Virus record (IMG/VR): IMGVR_UViG_3300050821_001527
Span: 124,001 to 188,000 of that record
Length of the DNA: 64,000 nt
Source: a virus
Direction: 5' to 3' (one strand)
Shown: positions 1 through 32,466 of the stretch, piece after piece
Layout of the letters: the number at the start of each line of letters is the position of its first letter
Position numbering within the stretch: the stretch's first letter is position 1
Notes under the pieces: model-generated
Databases searched by the model: none
Told to the model about the DNA's origin: nothing
What the model saw: only the letters and a program-made list of their open reading frames with translations
Program-made: the position numbers and the translations under genes

Positions 1-73
1 GGAGTGGTGCATAAGTAAGCACGGTTGGCTTTCACCCAGCAGAAGCTCGGAGCGTTACCGGCCTCCCCTACCA
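1..73 (+). tRNA. tRNA-Glu(TTC), 5' end cut by window edge
   Basis: Cloverleaf lacking its first about three bases: D-stem GTGC/GCAC, anticodon loop CTTTCAC (anticodon TTC), encoded CCA at 71-73. The 3' acceptor strand CTCCCCT needs AGGGGAG, of which only GGAG lies in the window. The T-loop is AGCGTTA instead of TTCRANT and the D-loop is ATAAGTAA (AG instead of GG). Confidence 0.8.
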
Positions 74-78
74 TTTCT

Positions 79-156
79 GTAGCTGACCAGTAAGTCGTCG
101 TCTGCTCTGGCTTTCAACCAGATGTGTAGTGGGTGCGAGTCCCACCAGCTATGCCA
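79..156 (+). tRNA. tRNA with anticodon TTC (Glu)
   Basis: Acceptor GTAGCTG/CAGCTAT, anticodon stem TCTGG/CCAGA with loop CTTTCAA, T-stem GTGGG/CCCAC, discriminator G and encoded CCA. The T-loop TGCGAGT has G at position 55 and the D-loop contains AAG. It is a second TTC isoacceptor next to the first. CCA is followed by TTT, as after almost every tRNA here. Confidence 0.82.
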
Positions 157-161
157 TTTCC

Positions 162-215
162 GGGGTGCGCCTCGTCAATTCGTTGATAGGACGGCGAATA
201 TATCACCCCACTTTT
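162..215 (+). other. GC-rich hairpin with UUCG tetraloop between tRNAs
   Basis: GGGGTG at 162-167 can pair with CACCCC just before a T-run. Inside lies TCAA-TTCG-TTGA, a perfect stem with a UUCG tetraloop, flanked by CGCC/GGCG. It may be a terminator-like hairpin or a degenerate tRNA; nothing decides between them. Confidence 0.4.
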
Positions 216-219
216 TCTC

Positions 220-297
220 GGTTCCGTGGTGTAAATGGATTAAGCACAAGAGACTTTGACCCTCTTAGCTCCGGGTGCCAGCCGGACGGAACTGCCA
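220..297 (+). tRNA. tRNA-Gln(TTG)
   Basis: Acceptor GGTTCCG/CGGAACT, D-stem GTGT/GCAC, anticodon loop CTTTGAC (TTG), T-stem TCCGG/CCGGA, discriminator G plus CCA. The T-loop GTGCCAG is non-canonical. The closing anticodon pair is A-C, so the arm is slightly weak. Confidence 0.78.
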
Positions 298-304
298 TTT
301 TTAT

Positions 305-380
305 TCCCTCTTGGATTGTAATAGTAGCAACTCGGGCTTTGAACCCGAAAGCGGTGGGGCAGAACCATCAGAGGGAGCCA
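305..380 (+). tRNA. tRNA-Gln(TTG)
   Basis: Acceptor TCCCTCT/AGAGGGA, anticodon stem TCGGG/CCCGA with loop CTTTGAA, T-stem GGTGG/CCATC, encoded CCA. The D-loop TAATAGTAG and T-loop GGCAGAA match those of the Gln(CTG) tRNA at 2627, so the two are related copies. Confidence 0.82.
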
Positions 381-383
381 TTT

Positions 384-459
384 ATCGGGGTAAGGGTGTA
401 TTCGTGTAACGACCACTCGGAAGGAGTCTGGAAGCTTACGGACAAACTTCGTCCCCATC
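384..459 (+). other. Unresolved tRNA-like stretch
   Basis: Sits in phase between two tRNAs. GTCTG/CGGAC (426-443) encloses AAGCTTA, close to the AGCGTTA T-loops nearby, and CCA occurs at 455-457. I cannot build a convincing acceptor or anticodon arm, so it may be a decayed tRNA. Confidence 0.3.
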
Positions 460-465
460 TATTTT

Positions 466-541
466 CGGAGTGTATTGTCAACAGCAGACGGCCCGCCTTG
501 GAAGTGGGAGGTAGTTGGGGCAGCACCAACCATTCCGACCA
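466..541 (+). tRNA. tRNA-Pro(TGG)
   Basis: Acceptor CGGAGTG/CATTCCG, anticodon stem CCCGC/GTGGG with loop CTTGGAA (TGG), T-stem GTTGG/CCAAC with loop GGCAGCA, D-loop AACAGCA, discriminator A and CCA. The C1-G72 start suits proline. Confidence 0.85.
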
Positions 542-545
542 ATTT

Positions 546-728
546 ATGAACACTGAAAAAATCGTAGGTCAAGAATATCCAGCCGAATGTCTCGTTGATT
601 CCAAGACGGGTCTGCCGGTGATGATTCGTCATACCGAAGATTCGGACAGGATTCGTCAGTTGGCGAAGGCCAGCGCGGAGAACCTTCTGAGGGCTTTGCG
701 AGACGAAACGGGGCTGACGCCCATTTAA
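546..728 (+). CDS. Small hypothetical protein (60 aa)
   Basis: Begins four bases after the CCA of tRNA-Pro (CCA-ATTT-ATG) and ends six bases before tRNA-Arg, so it is a gene in the tRNA array. The protein is mildly acidic with a helical C-terminal half (about residues 33-55). No family recognised. The frame is open further upstream, but that would run through two tRNAs, so the ATG at 546 is preferred. Removal of the tRNA would leave a four-base leader. Confidence 0.65.
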   Translation: MNTEKIVGQEYPAECLVDSKTGLPVMIRHTEDSDRIRQLAKASAENLLRALRDETGLTPI

Positions 729-733
729 TTTAC

Positions 734-809
734 GGGTCTATAACTCAAATAGATAGAGCCTCGCCTTCTAAGCGATGGGATTCAGGTGCGACTCCTGATA
801 GACCTACCA
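734..809 (+). tRNA. tRNA-Arg(TCT)
   Basis: Acceptor GGGTCTA/TAGACCT, anticodon loop CTTCTAA (TCT), T-stem TCAGG/CCTGA with loop TGCGACT, D-loop AAATAGATA, discriminator A plus CCA. It shows the AG/G55 variant pattern. Confidence 0.87.
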
Positions 810-849
810 TTTCTAGTATAGCCACATGGCGTTTCACAAGTGCTTCAAC

Positions 850-869
850 TAGGTGTAATTCTAGGTATG
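850..869 (+). promoter_or_regulatory. GTGTAAT start-adjacent promoter of HNH gene
   Basis: GGTGTAATTCTAGGTATG: an extended -10-like TGTAAT lies seven bases before the ATG. The same arrangement precedes the other four homing endonucleases in the window. Confidence 0.55.
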
Positions 870-1343
870 GGCCACAAAGCTACAAACGAACAACTGGCGG
901 TTATTATCGCAGAGTCTATTTCCTTCTCTGAGGCAATGAGAAAATGCGATATGAAGCCAAGGGGAGCGTCTTACCAATGGTTTCAAAAACGAGTTAAGAA
1001 GCTCGGATTAGACACGTCTCATTTTAAGGGATACTCGGCTGGTGGTCTGGAAAGGGCCAAGCAGATAAAGAAGCATTGGTCGGAGATTCTTGTTTTAGGA
1101 GACGGTTCGGGCAGAGAAAGGTCAGAGCCTCTTAGGAGGGCTTTTAAAGAATACTGCTTAGAGCAGGCAGTCCCACATATTTGCAACGTCTGCAACGTCT
1201 GCAAGATGGAACCAATTTGGAATGGCCAGCCAATGATATTTCAAATTGACCACATCAATTCAATCAATTTCGATAACAGACCGCTGAACCTTCAATGGAT
1301 TTGCGGCAACTGTCATCAACAGAAAAATTCTAACGGCTACTAA
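867..1343 (+). CDS. HNH homing endonuclease
   Basis: 158-residue protein. An N-terminal helical DNA-binding-like part is followed by a C-terminal HNH fold: a Cys pair (CNVCxxC), IDHINSINFDNRPLNL, then CGNCHQQK. This layout is typical of free-standing phage HNH endonucleases that nick DNA and spread themselves. The ATG at 867 was chosen because the GTGTAAT box sits just upstream; a GTG nine codons earlier is possible. The last codons overlap the 5' acceptor strand of tRNA-Phe, so the element is wedged into the tRNA array. Confidence 0.85.
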   Translation: MGHKATNEQLAVIIAESISFSEAMRKCDMKPRGASYQWFQKRVKKLGLDTSHFKGYSAGGLERAKQIKKHWSEILVLGDGSGRERSEPLRRAFKEYCLEQAVPHICNVCNVCKMEPIWNGQPMIFQIDHINSINFDNRPLNLQWICGNCHQQKNSNGY

Positions 1344-1410
1344 GCTAATCAAGTGAAAGCAGCGGACTGAAAATCCGTGGAGTTTGGCGCGATACCAAAA
1401 GTAGCCACCA
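1335..1410 (+). tRNA. tRNA-Phe(GAA)
   Basis: Acceptor GGCTACT/AGTAGCC, D-stem GCT/AGC, anticodon stem GCGGA/TCCGT with loop CTGAAAA, T-stem TTTGG/CCAAA with loop CGCGATA, CCA at 1408-1410. Its first nine bases are the end of the HNH coding sequence. Confidence 0.86.
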
Positions 1411-1415
1411 ATTTT

Positions 1416-1563
1416 GGGTATATGTTGTAATGGCAGCAAAAAGGGCGGGAGAGTCGAGGGAATAGCAGACCAACTATAGCTCTGTAAGCCTAGTAGCTCG
1501 ATTTGAAAACCTGAATACTCGTCTATACGAGTGGCCTCGGTTCGATTCCGGGTATATCCACCA
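1416..1563 (+). tRNA. Over-long tRNA-like gene (148 nt), Tyr/Ser type
   Basis: Acceptor GGGTATA/TATATCC, canonical T-arm CTCGG-TTCGATT-CCGGG, a long variable arm ACTCGT/ACGAGT and encoded CCA make a class II tRNA. The centre is about 55 nt too long. It contains a nested helix TCGAG...CTCGA and a hairpin displaying CTGTAAG (would read GTA, Tyr). The mature anticodon arm cannot be fixed by eye. It may be a precursor with an insertion. Confidence 0.6.
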
Positions 1564-1567
1564 ATCT

Positions 1568-1646
1568 CCGTCAGTAGCTCAAATGTGGTAAGAGCGTTGG
1601 TTTGAAACACCAAAGGTTGTCGTTCCCCAAACGACTTGACGGGCCA
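1568..1646 (+). tRNA. tRNA with anticodon GAA (Phe-like)
   Basis: Acceptor CCGTCAG/TTGACGG, D-stem GCTC/GAGC with loop AAATGTGGTAA, anticodon stem TTGGT/ACCAA with loop TTGAAAC, T-stem GTCG/CGAC with a C-rich loop, discriminator G and CCA. If read as written it duplicates Phe(GAA). Identity is uncertain. Confidence 0.7.
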
Positions 1647-1666
1647 TTTTAAGTGTATAATTCTGT

Positions 1667-1921
1667 GTGGAAGCACTAGCAAAACAGACCCTTCAATGTG
1701 ATGACTGCAAGAAAGTCATTGACACCCGCCGCGATACTGACCTTGAGGACAGCATCCAAGCGAAGTTGAAGAACCTCAAGGGCGACCCGCAGGTTTATCA
1801 TTTCTGCGCGGAAAGCTGCCTTGCCTCCTTTTTGCAGAAGCGCATCAAGAAAAAGAACGCCCGCGCCTCATACGACGCTTTCGCCTACGAGATTGATTTG
1901 TCCGGGGCAAAGGTTAAATAA
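1667..1921 (+). CDS. Hypothetical protein with Cys motifs (84 aa)
   Basis: GTG start; a TATAAT box at 1656-1661 ends five bases before it, so the mRNA is probably leaderless. The N-terminus has CDDC and residue 50 onward HFCAESC, a possible four-ligand zinc site; the C-terminus is lysine-rich. No family recognised. Its stop overlaps the start of the next gene by one base. Confidence 0.75.
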   Translation: MEALAKQTLQCDDCKKVIDTRRDTDLEDSIQAKLKNLKGDPQVYHFCAESCLASFLQKRIKKKNARASYDAFAYEIDLSGAKVK

Positions 1922-2130
1922 TGAAATTTTCATCTTTCGCCAAGCTTGTGTTGATTTTCGGGGCAGCGATTATGCTCCTTGATGGTTGCGCTCTCGTTGG
2001 TTGTAATCACGCATTCCCGCAAGTCGAATGGTATTGGTCAGCCGATGCTAAAGCCTGTCGCAAGGAACACGCGATGGAAGCCCAGTGGCGACAGTCCGCA
2101 ACAAACAATTTAAGGCAGTCGTTCAAGTGA
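1921..2130 (+). CDS. Small lipoprotein (69 aa)
   Basis: Residues 1-22 form a signal peptide with lipobox LLDGC, so Cys23 should be lipidated and the mature 47 residues face the periplasm or outer surface. The mature part contains further Cys and Trp residues. Such small lipoproteins in phages often act in lysis or superinfection exclusion; that role is inference. The last 17 bases overlap tRNA-Met. Confidence 0.8.
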   Translation: MKFSSFAKLVLIFGAAIMLLDGCALVGCNHAFPQVEWYWSADAKACRKEHAMEAQWRQSATNNLRQSFK

Positions 2131-2184
2131 ACAAGATGCTCTCATAAGGCGTCAAGGATGGAGCGTTACCATCGTCTGCTACCA
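2114..2184 (+). tRNA. tRNA-Met(CAT)
   Basis: Acceptor GGCAGTC/GTCTGCT (one T-T mismatch), anticodon loop CTCATAA (CAT) on an extended stem GATGCT/GGCGTC, T-stem GATGG/CCATC with loop AGCGTTA, encoded CCA. At 71 nt it is short, with a very small D-arm. Elongator, initiator or Ile-lysidine use cannot be separated. Confidence 0.8.
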
Positions 2185-2189
2185 ATTTC

Positions 2190-2266
2190 GGATTCGTAGC
2201 TCAAATGCTAAGAGCAGCCGGTTCTTACCCGGAAGGTTGTGGCTCGTCAAGCCACCGAGTCCACCA
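2190..2266 (+). tRNA. tRNA-Lys(CTT)
   Basis: Acceptor GGATTCG/CGAGTCC, D-stem GCTC/GAGC, anticodon loop TTCTTAC (CTT), T-stem GTGGC/GCCAC, CCA. The T-loop TCGTCAA and D-loop AAATGCTAA are unlike both the canonical form and the AG/G55 form. Confidence 0.8.
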
Positions 2267-2270
2267 TTTA

Positions 2271-2337
2271 TGGCCGTCAGCCTGAACCCCATCAGGCTAG
2301 TCCACCAAGGACGATGCAGAGGGTTATGCAACGGCAT
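2271..2337 (+). tRNA. Possible degenerate tRNA
   Basis: GCCGT/ACGGC can form most of an acceptor stem, and the stretch ends TCCA followed by TTT like its neighbours. AGCCTGA/TCAGGCT is a strong hairpin, but its loop has no T33 or anticodon layout. Probably a decayed tRNA or another small structured RNA. Confidence 0.35.
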
Positions 2338-2344
2338 CCATTTC

Positions 2345-2416
2345 GCCAGTGCCGTCAGCACGGATTCGAGTTTTGTAAACTTGAAGCAGTCGGGGCAGCA
2401 CCGACCTCTGGCTCCA
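2345..2416 (+). tRNA. tRNA-Thr(TGT)
   Basis: Acceptor GCCAGTG/CTCTGGC, anticodon stem CGAGT/ACTTG with loop TTTGTAA (TGT), T-stem GTCGG/CCGAC with loop GGCAGCA, discriminator T, CCA. The short D-arm CCGT/ACGG resembles that of Thr(CGT) at 8624. Confidence 0.85.
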
Positions 2417-2420
2417 TTTC

Positions 2421-2556
2421 GCCGTTCTAGTTCAATGTAGAACACGTCTCTCGAAAAGCCGATAGGCTCCCTGAACGGAGCAGTTAGTGGGGTGTTTGCC
2501 CTGCGATGTAATAAGGCCAGATGAACTGCTGGTGCCAAGTCCAGCGAACGGCTCCA
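2421..2556 (+). tRNA. Interrupted tRNA-like gene (136 nt)
   Basis: Acceptor GCCGTTC/GAACGGC is perfect. D-stem GTTC/GAAC, T-stem GCTGG/CCAGC and the CCA at 2554-2556 sit at normal distances. The anticodon stem CGTCT (2445-2449) pairs with AGATG (2519-2523), but 69 nt lie between them instead of 7. The insert has its own hairpin GCTCC/GGAGC. It looks like a precursor with an insertion in the anticodon loop; the mature anticodon is unknown. Confidence 0.65.
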
Positions 2557-2626
2557 AACTAGGCTGCGCGTGGTAGCCTCAGAGGGGTGAAAGTCCCTAA
2601 CCACGACAAATTTAATTCAATTTAAT
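2557..2626 (+). other. Minihelix-like RNA stretch and AATTCAATTTAA element
   Basis: CGTGGT (2569-2574) pairs with ACCACG (2600-2605) around AGGG-GTGAAAGT-CCCT, an acceptor-plus-T-arm shape without D or anticodon arms, followed by ACAAATTT rather than CCA. Then AATTTAATTCAATTTAAT directly precedes the next tRNA. No gene is visible. Confidence 0.3.
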
Positions 2627-2701
2627 CGCCCGTTCTGAATAATAGTAGTTCGTCGCGCTCTGAACGCGAAGGCGGTGGGGCAGAACCATCACGGGTGGCC
2701 A
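2627..2701 (+). tRNA. tRNA-Gln(CTG)
   Basis: Acceptor CGCCCGT/ACGGGTG, D-stem GAA/TTC with loop TAATAGTAG, anticodon stem TCGCG/CGCGA with loop CTCTGAA (CTG), T-stem GGTGG/CCATC with loop GGCAGAA, discriminator G, CCA. Confidence 0.86.
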
Positions 2702-2706
2702 TTTAC

Positions 2707-2780
2707 GCGGGATTAGCTCAAAAGTAGAGCGAGTCGTTTACACCGACAGGACGAGGGAGCATTACCTTCATTCCGCACCA
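2707..2780 (+). tRNA. tRNA-Val(TAC)
   Basis: Acceptor GCGGGAT/ATTCCGC, D-stem GCTC/GAGC with loop AAAAGTA, anticodon loop TTTACAC (TAC), T-stem GAGGG/CCTTC with loop AGCATTA, CCA. Confidence 0.87.
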
Positions 2781-2785
2781 TTTAC

Positions 2786-2862
2786 GCAATCGAAGCTACA
2801 GCAGACCGGCTCCCGGCTCTTAACCGGATTTGGTGAGGTTGCAACTACCTCCGATTGCACCA
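2786..2862 (+). tRNA. tRNA with anticodon CTT (Lys)
   Basis: Perfect acceptor GCAATCG/CGATTGC, anticodon stem CCGG/CCGG with loop CTCTTAA, T-stem GAGGT/ACCTC with loop TGCAACT, CCA. The D-arm (GCT/GGC) has an unusually long loop. Second of three CTT tRNAs. Confidence 0.8.
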
Positions 2863-2866
2863 TTTC

Positions 2867-2946
2867 GCGGTCTTAGCTTAAACGGATAAAAGCCCTTCGC
2901 TCTTAACGAATGAGATGTCGCCCTCCAAGCAGGACAGACCGCACCA
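2867..2946 (+). tRNA. tRNA with anticodon CTT (Lys)
   Basis: Perfect acceptor GCGGTCT/AGACCGC, D-stem GCT/AGC, anticodon stem TTCG/CGAA with loop CTCTTAA, CCA. The T-arm is irregular (GTC...CCT/AGG...GAC with a bulge). Third CTT tRNA of the window. Confidence 0.75.
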
Positions 2947-2956
2947 ATTTGATTAC

Positions 2957-2998
2957 ACCCCTGCCGCCTCTTGACAATGCGTAATCGCAGGGGTTTTT
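2957..2998 (+). terminator. Rho-independent terminator-like hairpin
   Basis: ACCCCTGC (2957-2964) pairs with GCAGGGGT (2987-2994), followed by TTTTT. The 22-base loop is long, but stem plus T-run fit a terminator inside the tRNA array. Confidence 0.6.
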
Positions 2999-3006
2999 CC
3001 ATTTAT

Positions 3007-3092
3007 GGCCGTGTGTAGCGTAAGGGAAAAGCAGAACCGATAGACTTAAAATCTGTTGCTACTTGAGGGTGCAAGACCGTCCACGGCTACCA
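3007..3092 (+). tRNA. tRNA-Leu(TAA)
   Basis: Acceptor GGCCGTG/CACGGCT, anticodon stem ATAGA/TCTGT with loop CTTAAAA (TAA), extended variable region, T-stem GAGGG/CCGTC with loop TGCAAGA, discriminator A, CCA at 3090-3092. Last tRNA of the main array. Confidence 0.83.
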
Positions 3093-3207: not shown

Positions 3208-3966
3208 ATGGGAAAGTTACTAAGACTCGGAAGAAAGCAAGCCCGCTTCGACAAGCGCACTTTGAAGCTGGAAGACTACATTTCTGCTGATTTACAGTTC
3301 CCCCGCAAGGTTGTTTGGCAGAACAAGATTCCAAATTGGGGCATGATGCTTAACGACCAGTTGGGAGATTGCACCTGTGCCGCTGCCGGTCACATGATTA
3401 TGAACTGGACGGCCAATGCGGGCGTCCTCGTCACCCCAAACGACAACCAAATTCTTTCCGCTTACGAAGCCGTTGGGGGATACAACCCAAATGCCGCTCC
3501 CGACGCCAATGGAAACAACCCAACCGATAACGGTGCCGTTGAACTTGACGTTTTGAAGTATTGGCAGGGAACCGGAATCGCCGGTCACAAAATCGGGGCT
3601 TACGTCAGCATTGACCCGAAGAACAGACGCCACTTGAAGTTGGCTATCTGGCTGTTTGGGGGAATTTACACAGGTGTCAACCTCACGCAAGCGGACATGG
3701 ACGCCACCAACGCAAACCAGCCTTGGAAATACACCACCGGTTCCTCGATTGGCGGTCACGCCATTCCTGCCTTGGGATTCAACCAGCACGGCTTTCAATT
3801 CATTACATGGGGAGCCGTTCAAACGGCCACTCCTGAATGGGTCGCCAACCAAACCGAAGAAGTTTACGCCTTGATTTCCGCAGATTGGCTTGAAAACAAT
3901 GGCAATGCTCCCTCTGGTTTTGATGCTCAACAACTTGCCGCCGACTTAAAAAGCGTCCAAAACTAA
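3208..3966 (+). CDS. Papain-like cysteine peptidase domain protein
   Basis: 252 residues. LGDCTCAAAGHMIMNW carries a likely catalytic Cys at the head of a helix, and SIGGHAIPALGF carries the His, followed by QFITWG as in C1/C39-like peptidases. There is no signal peptide. Such proteins occur in phages and viruses as virion or host-directed proteases; the substrate is unknown. The ATG at 3208 follows GTGTAATAAGAAGT, the start-adjacent box used elsewhere here; an ATG six codons upstream is possible. Confidence 0.7.
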   Translation: MGKLLRLGRKQARFDKRTLKLEDYISADLQFPRKVVWQNKIPNWGMMLNDQLGDCTCAAAGHMIMNWTANAGVLVTPNDNQILSAYEAVGGYNPNAAPDANGNNPTDNGAVELDVLKYWQGTGIAGHKIGAYVSIDPKNRRHLKLAIWLFGGIYTGVNLTQADMDATNANQPWKYTTGSSIGGHAIPALGFNQHGFQFITWGAVQTATPEWVANQTEEVYALISADWLENNGNAPSGFDAQQLAADLKSVQN

Positions 3967-26100: not shown

Positions 26101-27192
26101 ATGAACAACACCGACCAAGAATACTTCCGTCTCCTGCGCCTTATCCTCGATAATGGCCGCACGAAAGTCAATCGAACCGGCGTGGATACCATCGGCGTTT
26201 TCGGCGCACAGGCGCGTTTCAATCTCGCCGAAGGCTTCCCACTTCTAACTACCAAGAAAGTCTTTCTCAAGGCCATCATCCACGAACTGCTCTGGTTCAT
26301 CAAGGGCGACACGAATATCAAGTATCTGGTTGATAACGACGTTCACATTTGGGACGAGTGGGCCTACAAGCGTTTCTGCGATGCTCAAAAAGGGACGGAC
26401 GGAGTTATTACGAAAGCCCTTATTGACCAAAAGCAATTCATTCAGAATATCAAGGAATTTCCTGAATTTGCCGCTAGATGGGGCGACCTTGGAGAAGGCA
26501 CCTACGGAGGCATGTGGAGGGCGTTTCCTTACTACCGCGAATACGATGACGGCGAGGATGGTTCCGACTGCGCTACTATACAACGCGCCCATGAAACGAT
26601 TGACCAACTCAAAAAAGTCGTGGATAAGCTGAAAACCAATCCCGATGACCGTCGCATGATTGTCAGCGCGTGGCATCCTTACTGGGTTGACCATTGTGCC
26701 CTACCGCCGTGTCATTGTCTTTTCCACTTCAACACGGAAGAACTAACCGTCTCTGAGCGACTGGACGTGTATCACAAGGGAGGCTACAACTTGCTTCCGA
26801 AGTATCTTGGCGCGGACGATGCCACGGCGCACAAGAATCTGGATGATATTGGCGTTCCCAAACGCAGGCTTAACTGCTTGCTCTATCAACGCTCCTGTGA
26901 CACGTTCTTAGGCGTTCCATTCAATATCGCCAGCTACGCGCTCTTGACGAGCATGATTGCCAAGGTGGTCAACATGGTTCCCGGCGAGTTTGTCCACACC
27001 TACGGCGACTTGCACATTTACAAGAACCATCTGGAACAGGTCAAGGAACAGCTTTCGCGCAAACCGTTCGACAAGCTTCCTACCTTGAAACTGAACCCCG
27101 CCGTCACCGATTTATTTCAATATAAATACGAGGACATTTCAGTCATGGGATATGAATGTCATCCCGCCATCAAAGCCCCCATCGCTGTCTAA
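26101..27192 (+). CDS. thyA: Thymidylate synthase
   Basis: 363 residues, about 100 more than E. coli ThyA. Makes dTMP from dUMP with methylene-folate. [11 protein letters not shown] binds phosphate, [10 protein letters not shown], the active-site [11 protein letters not shown] with catalytic Cys, [20 protein letters not shown] with the dUMP-selecting Asn, and [12 protein letters not shown]. Extra length lies in inserts at about residues 95-135 and 215-262. The kept Asn argues for dUMP rather than dCMP. Forms a pathway with DHFR, dUTPase and dCMP deaminase here. Confidence 0.95.
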
Positions 27193-31296: not shown

Positions 31297-32466
31297 ATGA
31301 AAATCTACGCCGAAAACACTCGCGTCCCAATCAAGTCTTGGTGTGAAAACCCGGAAGCCGGGGCTATCAAGCAGGCCGAGAACATGGCCAACCTGCCATT
31401 CACTTTCAGACACGTCGCCCTCATGCCCGACACCCATCAAGGCTTTGGTATGCCTATCGGTGGAGTTCTGGCTACCGATAACGTCATCATTCCGAACGCT
31501 GTCGGAGTTGACATTGGGTGCGGTATGTGTTCCATCGAATCCAACATCCAAACTTGGGACAGGGAACTGTTGACGGAAGCCATCAAGGAAATCCGCTACA
31601 ACGTTCCTGTCGGATTCAGCCGCCATCTTACCGCGAAGCCTGTGGACAAGCTGCCCGCCAGCACGTCCCCGAACGCCTACTATGAGAAGTTCCTTGAGCC
31701 GTCCCTGTTCCAACTCGGAACCTTGGGCGGCGGGAATCACTTCATCGAATTACAGAAGAACCCGAACGGAAATCTGTGCGTGATGATTCACTCTGGTAGC
31801 CGCAACATCGGGAAGCAGGTTGCCGACTATTACAACAAGCTCGCCCTCGCTCTGAACCAGCGTTATTTCAGTCAGGTCACGAAGGAAACCGACTTGGCGT
31901 TCCTGCCGCTTGACTCTGCCGAGGGTCAGGCTTACTTGGCGGAAATGACTTACTGTGTCGCGTTTGCCTTGGCGAACCGCATGGAAATGATGAACGCTTG
32001 CCAGCAAGCCATCTACAAGGTTTTCAAGCCTTTGCAACAGGTCGAGTTCACGAACTTCATCAACATTCCGCACAATTATGCGAAGGTTGAAAAGCACTTC
32101 GGCAAGGAAGTCGTCGTCCACCGCAAGGGCGCGACGAATGCCAGCGAGGGCGTCATTGGGCTAATCCCCGGCTCGCAGGGCACCAAGAGCTACGTGGTGC
32201 GCGGCAAGGGTAATCGTGAGAGCTTCGAGAGTTGCTCCCACGGCGCAGGCCGCAAGATGGGCCGCATGGTCGCCAAACGCACTCTGAACATCGAAGACGA
32301 GCAACGCAAGCTGGACGAACTTGGAGTCATTCATGCCGTCCGCGCCAACTCTGACTTGGACGAGGCTCCGGGTTCCTATAAGGACATTGACGTGGTTATG
32401 AGCGAGCAAACCGACCTGATTGACGTTATCGAAGAACGCACTCCTTTGGGAGTCGTGAAGGGGTAA
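31297..32466 (+). CDS. rtcB: RtcB family RNA ligase
   Basis: 389 residues, slightly shorter than bacterial RtcB. PNAVGVDIGCGMCS holds the Mn-binding Asp and Cys, GGGNHFIEL and HSGSRNIGKQV further metal and GTP contacts, EVVVHRKGATNA, and SCSHGAGRKMGR the His that is guanylylated. RtcB joins a 2',3'-cyclic phosphate or 3'-phosphate to a 5'-OH, as in tRNA splicing and repair of nuclease-cut tRNA. Its own leaderless promoter and the interrupted tRNA-like genes in the window make tRNA repair or splicing the natural role. Confidence 0.93.
   Translation: MKIYAENTRVPIKSWCENPEAGAIKQAENMANLPFTFRHVALMPDTHQGFGMPIGGVLATDNVIIPNAVGVDIGCGMCSIESNIQTWDRELLTEAIKEIRYNVPVGFSRHLTAKPVDKLPASTSPNAYYEKFLEPSLFQLGTLGGGNHFIELQKNPNGNLCVMIHSGSRNIGKQVADYYNKLALALNQRYFSQVTKETDLAFLPLDSAEGQAYLAEMTYCVAFALANRMEMMNACQQAIYKVFKPLQQVEFTNFINIPHNYAKVEKHFGKEVVVHRKGATNASEGVIGLIPGSQGTKSYVVRGKGNRESFESCSHGAGRKMGRMVAKRTLNIEDEQRKLDELGVIHAVRANSDLDEAPGSYKDIDVVMSEQTDLIDVIEERTPLGVVKG

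Follow-up and report, generated by a model that had tools for sequence, protein, structure and literature searches.

Bases 2421-2556 of the window, the 64,000-nucleotide stretch of viral DNA analysed here, form a real, non-random structure, a tRNA cloverleaf whose anticodon loop is 69 nt long. Our best reading of the extra bases is that they are a candidate small tRNA intron of an unclassified kind. More fully, we give about an even chance to the proposal that this is a real tRNA gene with a 62-base intron-like insert in its anticodon arm, the transcript of which is predicted to be cut and then sealed by the RtcB ligase of the same virus. The window comprises bases 124001-188000 of a record of 202,882 bases, and the virus is probably a large one that infects bacteria.

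Structure of the gene at 2421-2556

The acceptor, D, anticodon and T stems, the CCA end and the 69-base loop described in the sequence-only reading were confirmed both by direct reading and by a cloverleaf scan. The scan parses the 136 nt as GCCGTTC TA GTTC AATGTA GAAC A CGTCT (69 nt) AGATG AACT GCTGG TGCCAAGT CCAGC GAACGGC T CCA. All pairs are formed in the acceptor stem (GCCGTTC/GAACGGC, 7/7), the D stem (GTTC/GAAC, 4/4), the anticodon stem (CGTCT/AGATG, 5/5, one of them G-U) and the T stem (GCTGG/CCAGC, 5/5), and the 3′ part has a variable loop AACT, U73 and CCA. The arms had been said to lie at exact distances; the coordinates are exact and the stems complete, but the T loop (TGCCAAGT) is of 8 bases rather than 7, which had been overlooked and is the sole departure from a full cloverleaf. 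The parts of the gene are as follows.

2421-2449, + strand: tRNA 5′ half, with the 5′ strand of the acceptor (2421-2427), the D arm (2430-2443) and CGTCT (2445-2449), from direct reading and the cloverleaf scan
2450-2456, + strand: CT-CGA-AA, a canonical 7-base anticodon loop with anticodon CGA (nominally Ser), on the 5′ side of the 69-base loop
2457-2518, + strand: 62-base insert, candidate intron (AGCCG...AAGGCC), removal of which restores a 74-nt tRNA
2457-2461, + strand: AGCCG, an alternative 3′ strand for the anticodon stem, 4/5 pairs with CGTCT (shuffled P = 0.017)
2466-2481, + strand: inner hairpin 1, GCTCC-CTGAAC-GGAGC, from the fold
2487-2504, + strand: inner hairpin 2, GUGGGGU-GUUU-GCCCUGC, from the fold
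2519-2556, + strand: tRNA 3′ half, with AGATG, AACT, the T arm with its 8-base loop, the 3′ strand of the acceptor, U73 and CCA

Removal of the 62 bases yields the arm CGTCT-CTCGAAA-AGATG, with anticodon CGA. The insert lies at 38/39 in tRNA numbering, or up to two bases further into the 3′ strand of the anticodon stem, since AG is common to both borders and the excision point can slide by that much. The single hairpin that had been noticed within the loop is real, and folding adds the second; the whole element has a folding energy of -46 kcal/mol (z = -2.1). The insert is indeed below group I size, as had been claimed, and matched no Rfam intron. Neither did covariance models place the element in another RNA class: group I and all other Rfam families gave no match, and a Y RNA or YrlA was rejected on the same ground and for want of a TROVE gene in the record.

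When the 15.5-kb array region was dinucleotide-shuffled 60 times, no long-loop cloverleaf scored as high as this element (17.9), and none that does so is present on the remaining + strand (58 kb) or on the reverse strand (73 kb). With the cloverleaf taken as given, shuffling of the middle produces an anticodon stem, a loop with U33 and R37 and an insert with P = 0.009; support for the anticodon part is therefore moderate. Even at E = 5, 2421-2556 was called neither by ARAGORN nor by the Rfam tRNA model. Both programs also fail on many plain tRNA neighbours, because the D and T loops of this phage are divergent.

The tRNA array and its relatives

The gene lies close to the end of a long tRNA array, of which three features are relevant here.

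1-3092, + strand: downstream part of the tRNA array, which as a whole starts about 7.3 kb before the window
1416-1563, + strand: second over-long tRNA, 148 nt, nominally Ser(UGA), with acceptor GGGTATA/TATATCC and a D arm
2345-2416, + strand: tRNA-Thr(UGU), directly upstream of 2421-2556

The array contains about 30 divergent tRNA genes and ends about base 3090, and most of the genes close with CCA followed by a T run. It is well kept, with 2 acceptor mismatches in 196 pairs, and the perfect cloverleaf of 2421-2556 in such an array therefore suggests selection. The T loops are mostly NGC (TGCGANT, AGCGTTA, GGCAGAA) and 24 of 28 D loops lack GG. G at T-loop position 55 and loss of G18G19 are found in most tRNAs of the arrays (window 1-3092; L002 1683-8992; L268; L274), and two related arrays homologous to that of the window, G014 and G015, have the same loop traits. 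The change at positions 55 and 18-19 is thus a lineage-wide alteration of the tRNA elbow, common to two related viruses. The second over-long tRNA, at 1416-1563, has a class II variable arm, about 50 extra bases between the D arm and the anticodon, and a canonical T loop (TTCGATT) unlike those of its neighbours. Short hairpins resembling an acceptor plus T arm lie between tRNA genes at 172-226 and 2568-2606, and are possibly tRNA remnants.

The related arrays were compared with the interrupted gene. G015 stops before the corresponding point. In G014 the homologue of tRNA-Thr(UGU) is followed, at the same place and with the same CGTCTCTC, by an uninterrupted tRNA with the anticodon arm CGTCT-CTCACAC-AGACG, which is no more similar to the restored tRNA than several other tRNAs are. 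As an orthologue of the restored tRNA, this neighbour is doubtful; the best match is a tRNA-Arg(UCG). A tRNA nested in the insert was also considered, as GCCGATAGGCT matches the start of the G014 neighbour, but across all tRNAs this match is within the range of shuffles, and no tRNA in the three arrays resembles the insert more closely than shuffled sequences do. When RtcB, thymidylate synthase and a phage ORF were used to look for close relatives, identities were at most 61%, and a phage BLAST search with the array as query gave no match. The thymidylate synthase (window 26101-27192) exceeds the Pfam model by about 95 residues, and related viral contigs carry similar long forms.

RNA ligase and cutting machinery

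The sequence-only reading had guessed at sealing by RtcB, and a copy that it did not name is present in the same genome.

31297-32466, + strand: RtcB RNA ligase, 389 aa (Pfam RtcB 4e-108; PHROG 'tRNA splicing ligase' 4e-113)

Alignment with Pyrococcus horikoshii RtcB showed that DxxC, GNHF, HN, HGAGR and the C-terminal KG are all kept. It is plausible that this enzyme would act as the sealer of the interrupted tRNA. Phage RtcB is also explained by the repair of tRNAs that host nucleases have cut. Searches of the 203-kb record, which may be incomplete, found no Rnl1 (PF09511), Rnl2 (PF09414), EndA (PF01974) or TROVE (Ro60) protein, and the insert borders carry no bulge-helix-bulge motif. With neither that motif nor an EndA family protein in the record, the proposal that splicing proceeds as in archaea and eukaryotes is therefore unsupported.

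Over-long tRNAs in other phages

IMG/VR was scanned for canonical T arms lying at an unusual distance downstream of a class I D arm. At least 120 stretches were found, and 109 distinct over-long cloverleaves among the matches listed were classified, with expectations taken from shuffled middles. In 41 of these 109 listed cloverleaves, against 0.5 expected, an insert interrupts the 5′ strand of the anticodon stem, following CG or ACG, and its removal restores a perfect tRNA. These inserts are mostly of 39-55 bases among the matches listed; examples are ACG(41 nt)GC-ATTCTAA-GCCGT in a tRNA-Arg (L148) and ACG(43 nt)GA-CTGGTAA-TCCGT in a tRNA-Thr (L141). Other loci with such inserts include L143, L152, L189, L212, L219, L225, L229, L233, L246, L250 and L256. 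Alignment of 22 members revealed a shared hairpin, with changes on both sides in 7/7 predicted pairs, followed by a nearly invariant ACNGCA. A strict motif for this family occurred in eight IMG/VR stretches and in none of 84,980 bacterial and archaeal species genomes. No account of the family was found in the open literature, which takes in few subscription journals and preprints, and its novelty is provisional.

Inserts in the anticodon loop account for a further 15 of the 109 listed cloverleaves, against 0.35 expected. In some, a complete tRNA is nested behind the anticodon (Gly within His, L219 2123; Phe within Pro, L151 4972). In others, which are His and Thr tRNAs, the insert is a shrunken minihelix made of an acceptor plus a T arm (L217 448; L144, minus strand, scan position 3847; L130 4945; L153 4219). 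L162 639 is a further member of this group, whose hosts are mostly His tRNAs. The nested tRNAs and minihelices start at 36/37 and stop before AA, and RNase P could, by inference, cut their 5′ border. An ordinary anticodon arm followed by a giant variable region was found in only 3 of the 109 listed cloverleaves, in a search that is biased toward class I D arms. Three neighbouring tRNAs on the minus strand of L244 (scan positions 1574, 1885 and 2056) have long inserts after the anticodon arm, all finishing with TCAAGCCTACAAGT or similar.

The insert of the window was assigned to neither recurrent family. It resembles the 5′-strand family in having ACG followed by T after the D arm, but ACNGCA is absent and no fitting loop with a 3′ strand lies near the T stem. 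Membership of the 36/37 minihelix family was rejected since there is no stacked pair of acceptor and T arm, and the 3′ end is GGCC, not AA.

BLAST searches located 5′-strand inserts in cultured phages of Vibrio, Aeromonas and Synechococcus. About 50 Vibrio records carry one, including the KVP40-like phage phi-pp2 (JN849462 181002-181114), where the gene is annotated as tRNA-Val. Elsewhere the interrupted gene is annotated as a pseudo tRNA (Vibrio 6E35.1a), tRNA-Pseudo (Aeromonas Ahp1_CNU-2021, MT161459 11731-11844) or tRNA-Undet (Synechococcus B23), or has no annotation (BUCT-ZZ01); further isolate records are ON615601, MN695335 (220408-220517) and MW824377 (164514-164623). Enterococcus phage EfV12-phi1, which encodes RtcB, has an unannotated tRNA-like gene (L385, about 1490-1640) with a much longer insert and the motif ACAGCAA, and this appears to be a longer version of the 5′-strand kind.

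All five isolate genomes searched encode either RtcB or Rnl1 together with Rnl2 family ligases, and they are among the 11 of 15 insert-bearing records longer than 130 kb in which a ligase of the RtcB, Rnl1 or Rnl2 family scores above the family cut-off. This co-occurrence is only suggestive, because such ligases are common in such phages.

Alternative interpretations of 2421-2556

The four intact stems around the insert, the co-encoded RtcB with no Rnl1 or Rnl2 family ligase found in the record, and the existence of other phage tRNAs with inserts argue for an intron. Against it, the interrupted gene is known from one genome, its T loop is of 8 bases, the insert falls outside all recurrent phage insert families, no bulge-helix-bulge or EndA was found, and the restored tRNA would combine a Ser anticodon with U73 and a variable loop of 4 bases, which a normal tRNA-Ser does not have.

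Alternatively, the gene may be an unspliced class II tRNA-Ser(CGA), with the arm CGTCT-CTCGAAA-AGCCG, one U.C mismatch and a giant variable region of 66 bases containing two hairpins. The anticodon favours this alternative, since CGA belongs to serine and a long variable arm is usual in tRNA-Ser; pairing with AGCCG is itself infrequent in shuffles (P = 0.017), and giant variable regions do occur in phage tRNAs (L226, L244). On pairing alone, AGATG as expected for an intron is preferred over AGCCG as expected for a variable arm by only about two to one. The class II structure, however, puts a mismatch at the centre of the anticodon stem, in an array with 6 mismatches among 140 anticodon-stem pairs, and it leaves the perfect AGATG, four bases before the T stem, as a coincidence (P = 0.009). 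It would also have U73 instead of G73, although U73 speaks against a normal serine tRNA under either interpretation. Because of the mid-stem mismatch, and because few of the over-long tRNAs have a giant variable region, an intron is favoured and we regard the class II tRNA as rather unlikely.

A little less likely still is that an ordinary tRNA gene in a fast-changing array was broken by an insertion and is dead, its transcript never being spliced. The 8-base T loop, an insert of no recognisable family, a nominal serine identity with no long arm and the rapid turnover between related arrays would all be in keeping with such a history. Against it, every pair of the acceptor, D, anticodon and T stems is intact and CCA is present. 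We consider it improbable that the element is a tRNA-like RNA with another job, such as luring anticodon nucleases away as a decoy or acting as a regulatory RNA stabilised by a tRNA body; an exposed, over-long anticodon region in a phage that also encodes an RNA ligase might suit such a role, but no Ro60/TROVE gene that would accompany a Y RNA was found in the record, and no Rfam family matched.

Proposed mechanism and implications

For an intron at 2457-2518, we infer transcription, cutting, the nature of the nuclease and ligation as follows. The transcript would adopt the fold of a tRNA, from which the insert would protrude as two hairpins. An endonuclease, which might be of phage or host origin or a self-cleaving RNA, would cut at both borders of the insert, and the four stems (acceptor, D, anticodon and T) would keep the halves in place. 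The phage's own RtcB would then seal them to give a 74-base tRNA with the loop CUCGAAA. If RtcB is the sealer, the cut would have to leave a 2′,3′-cyclic phosphate or 3′-phosphate and a 5′-OH.

Judged from the DNA, tRNA inserts in phages are a widespread, structured class of several kinds, which annotation pipelines label as pseudogenes or miss. It is possible, and we propose it tentatively, that phages carry out protein-dependent tRNA splicing, in which small introns, with three or more architectures among phages, would be cut by a nuclease of neither the EndA nor the group I type and sealed by a phage ligase, RtcB in this virus and Rnl1 or Rnl2 in others. As some of the inserts are found in cultured phages, both the occurrence and the mode of splicing are now testable. 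The inserts raise the questions of whether phages splice tRNAs enzymatically, whether splicing is part of the reason why they carry RtcB and Rnl ligases, and whether it shields phage tRNAs against anticodon nucleases.

Comparison with known systems

The closest precedent is in the Lak megaphages, for which tRNA introns were reported and called enigmatic, though splicing of them was not shown (Devoto 2019, PMC6784885). The suggestion that a spliced tRNA would be new for a phage was thus too strong, and the insert of the window is best read as a probable addition to these reported but unexplained phage tRNA introns. Both are small inserts in tRNA genes of phages with large tRNA sets, and in the window, too, the anticodon arm is interrupted and removal of the insert restores a tRNA. 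One of the Lak introns, that of tRNA-Thr(TGT), possibly codes for a tRNA of its own, whereas the insert of the window is unlike a tRNA; the available part of the Lak paper names no sealing enzyme (PMC6784885). The main text of a survey of huge phages does not contain the word 'intron' (PMC7162821).

Archaeal and eukaryotic introns, which are removed by EndA or TSEN and sealed by RtcB or Trl1, are similar in size range and in their site near the anticodon, and RtcB is present in this genome; they differ in that the borders in the window lack a bulge-helix-bulge, no EndA was found in the record, and excision would be at 38/39 rather than 37/38. Group I introns of bacterial and phage tRNA genes likewise interrupt the anticodon arm, but the 62 bases found here are far short of the core of about 200 bases or more and have no Rfam match. 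Class II tRNAs, those for Ser, Leu and Tyr, have a long variable arm, and the anticodon of this gene, CGA, is a serine one, but its variable region would be of 66 bases and its anticodon stem mismatched (4/5). In phage tRNA repair by RtcB or T4 Rnl1, the same ligase could seal a cut in the anticodon arm; repair, however, acts on cuts made by the host, whereas the gene in the window itself contains the extra bases.
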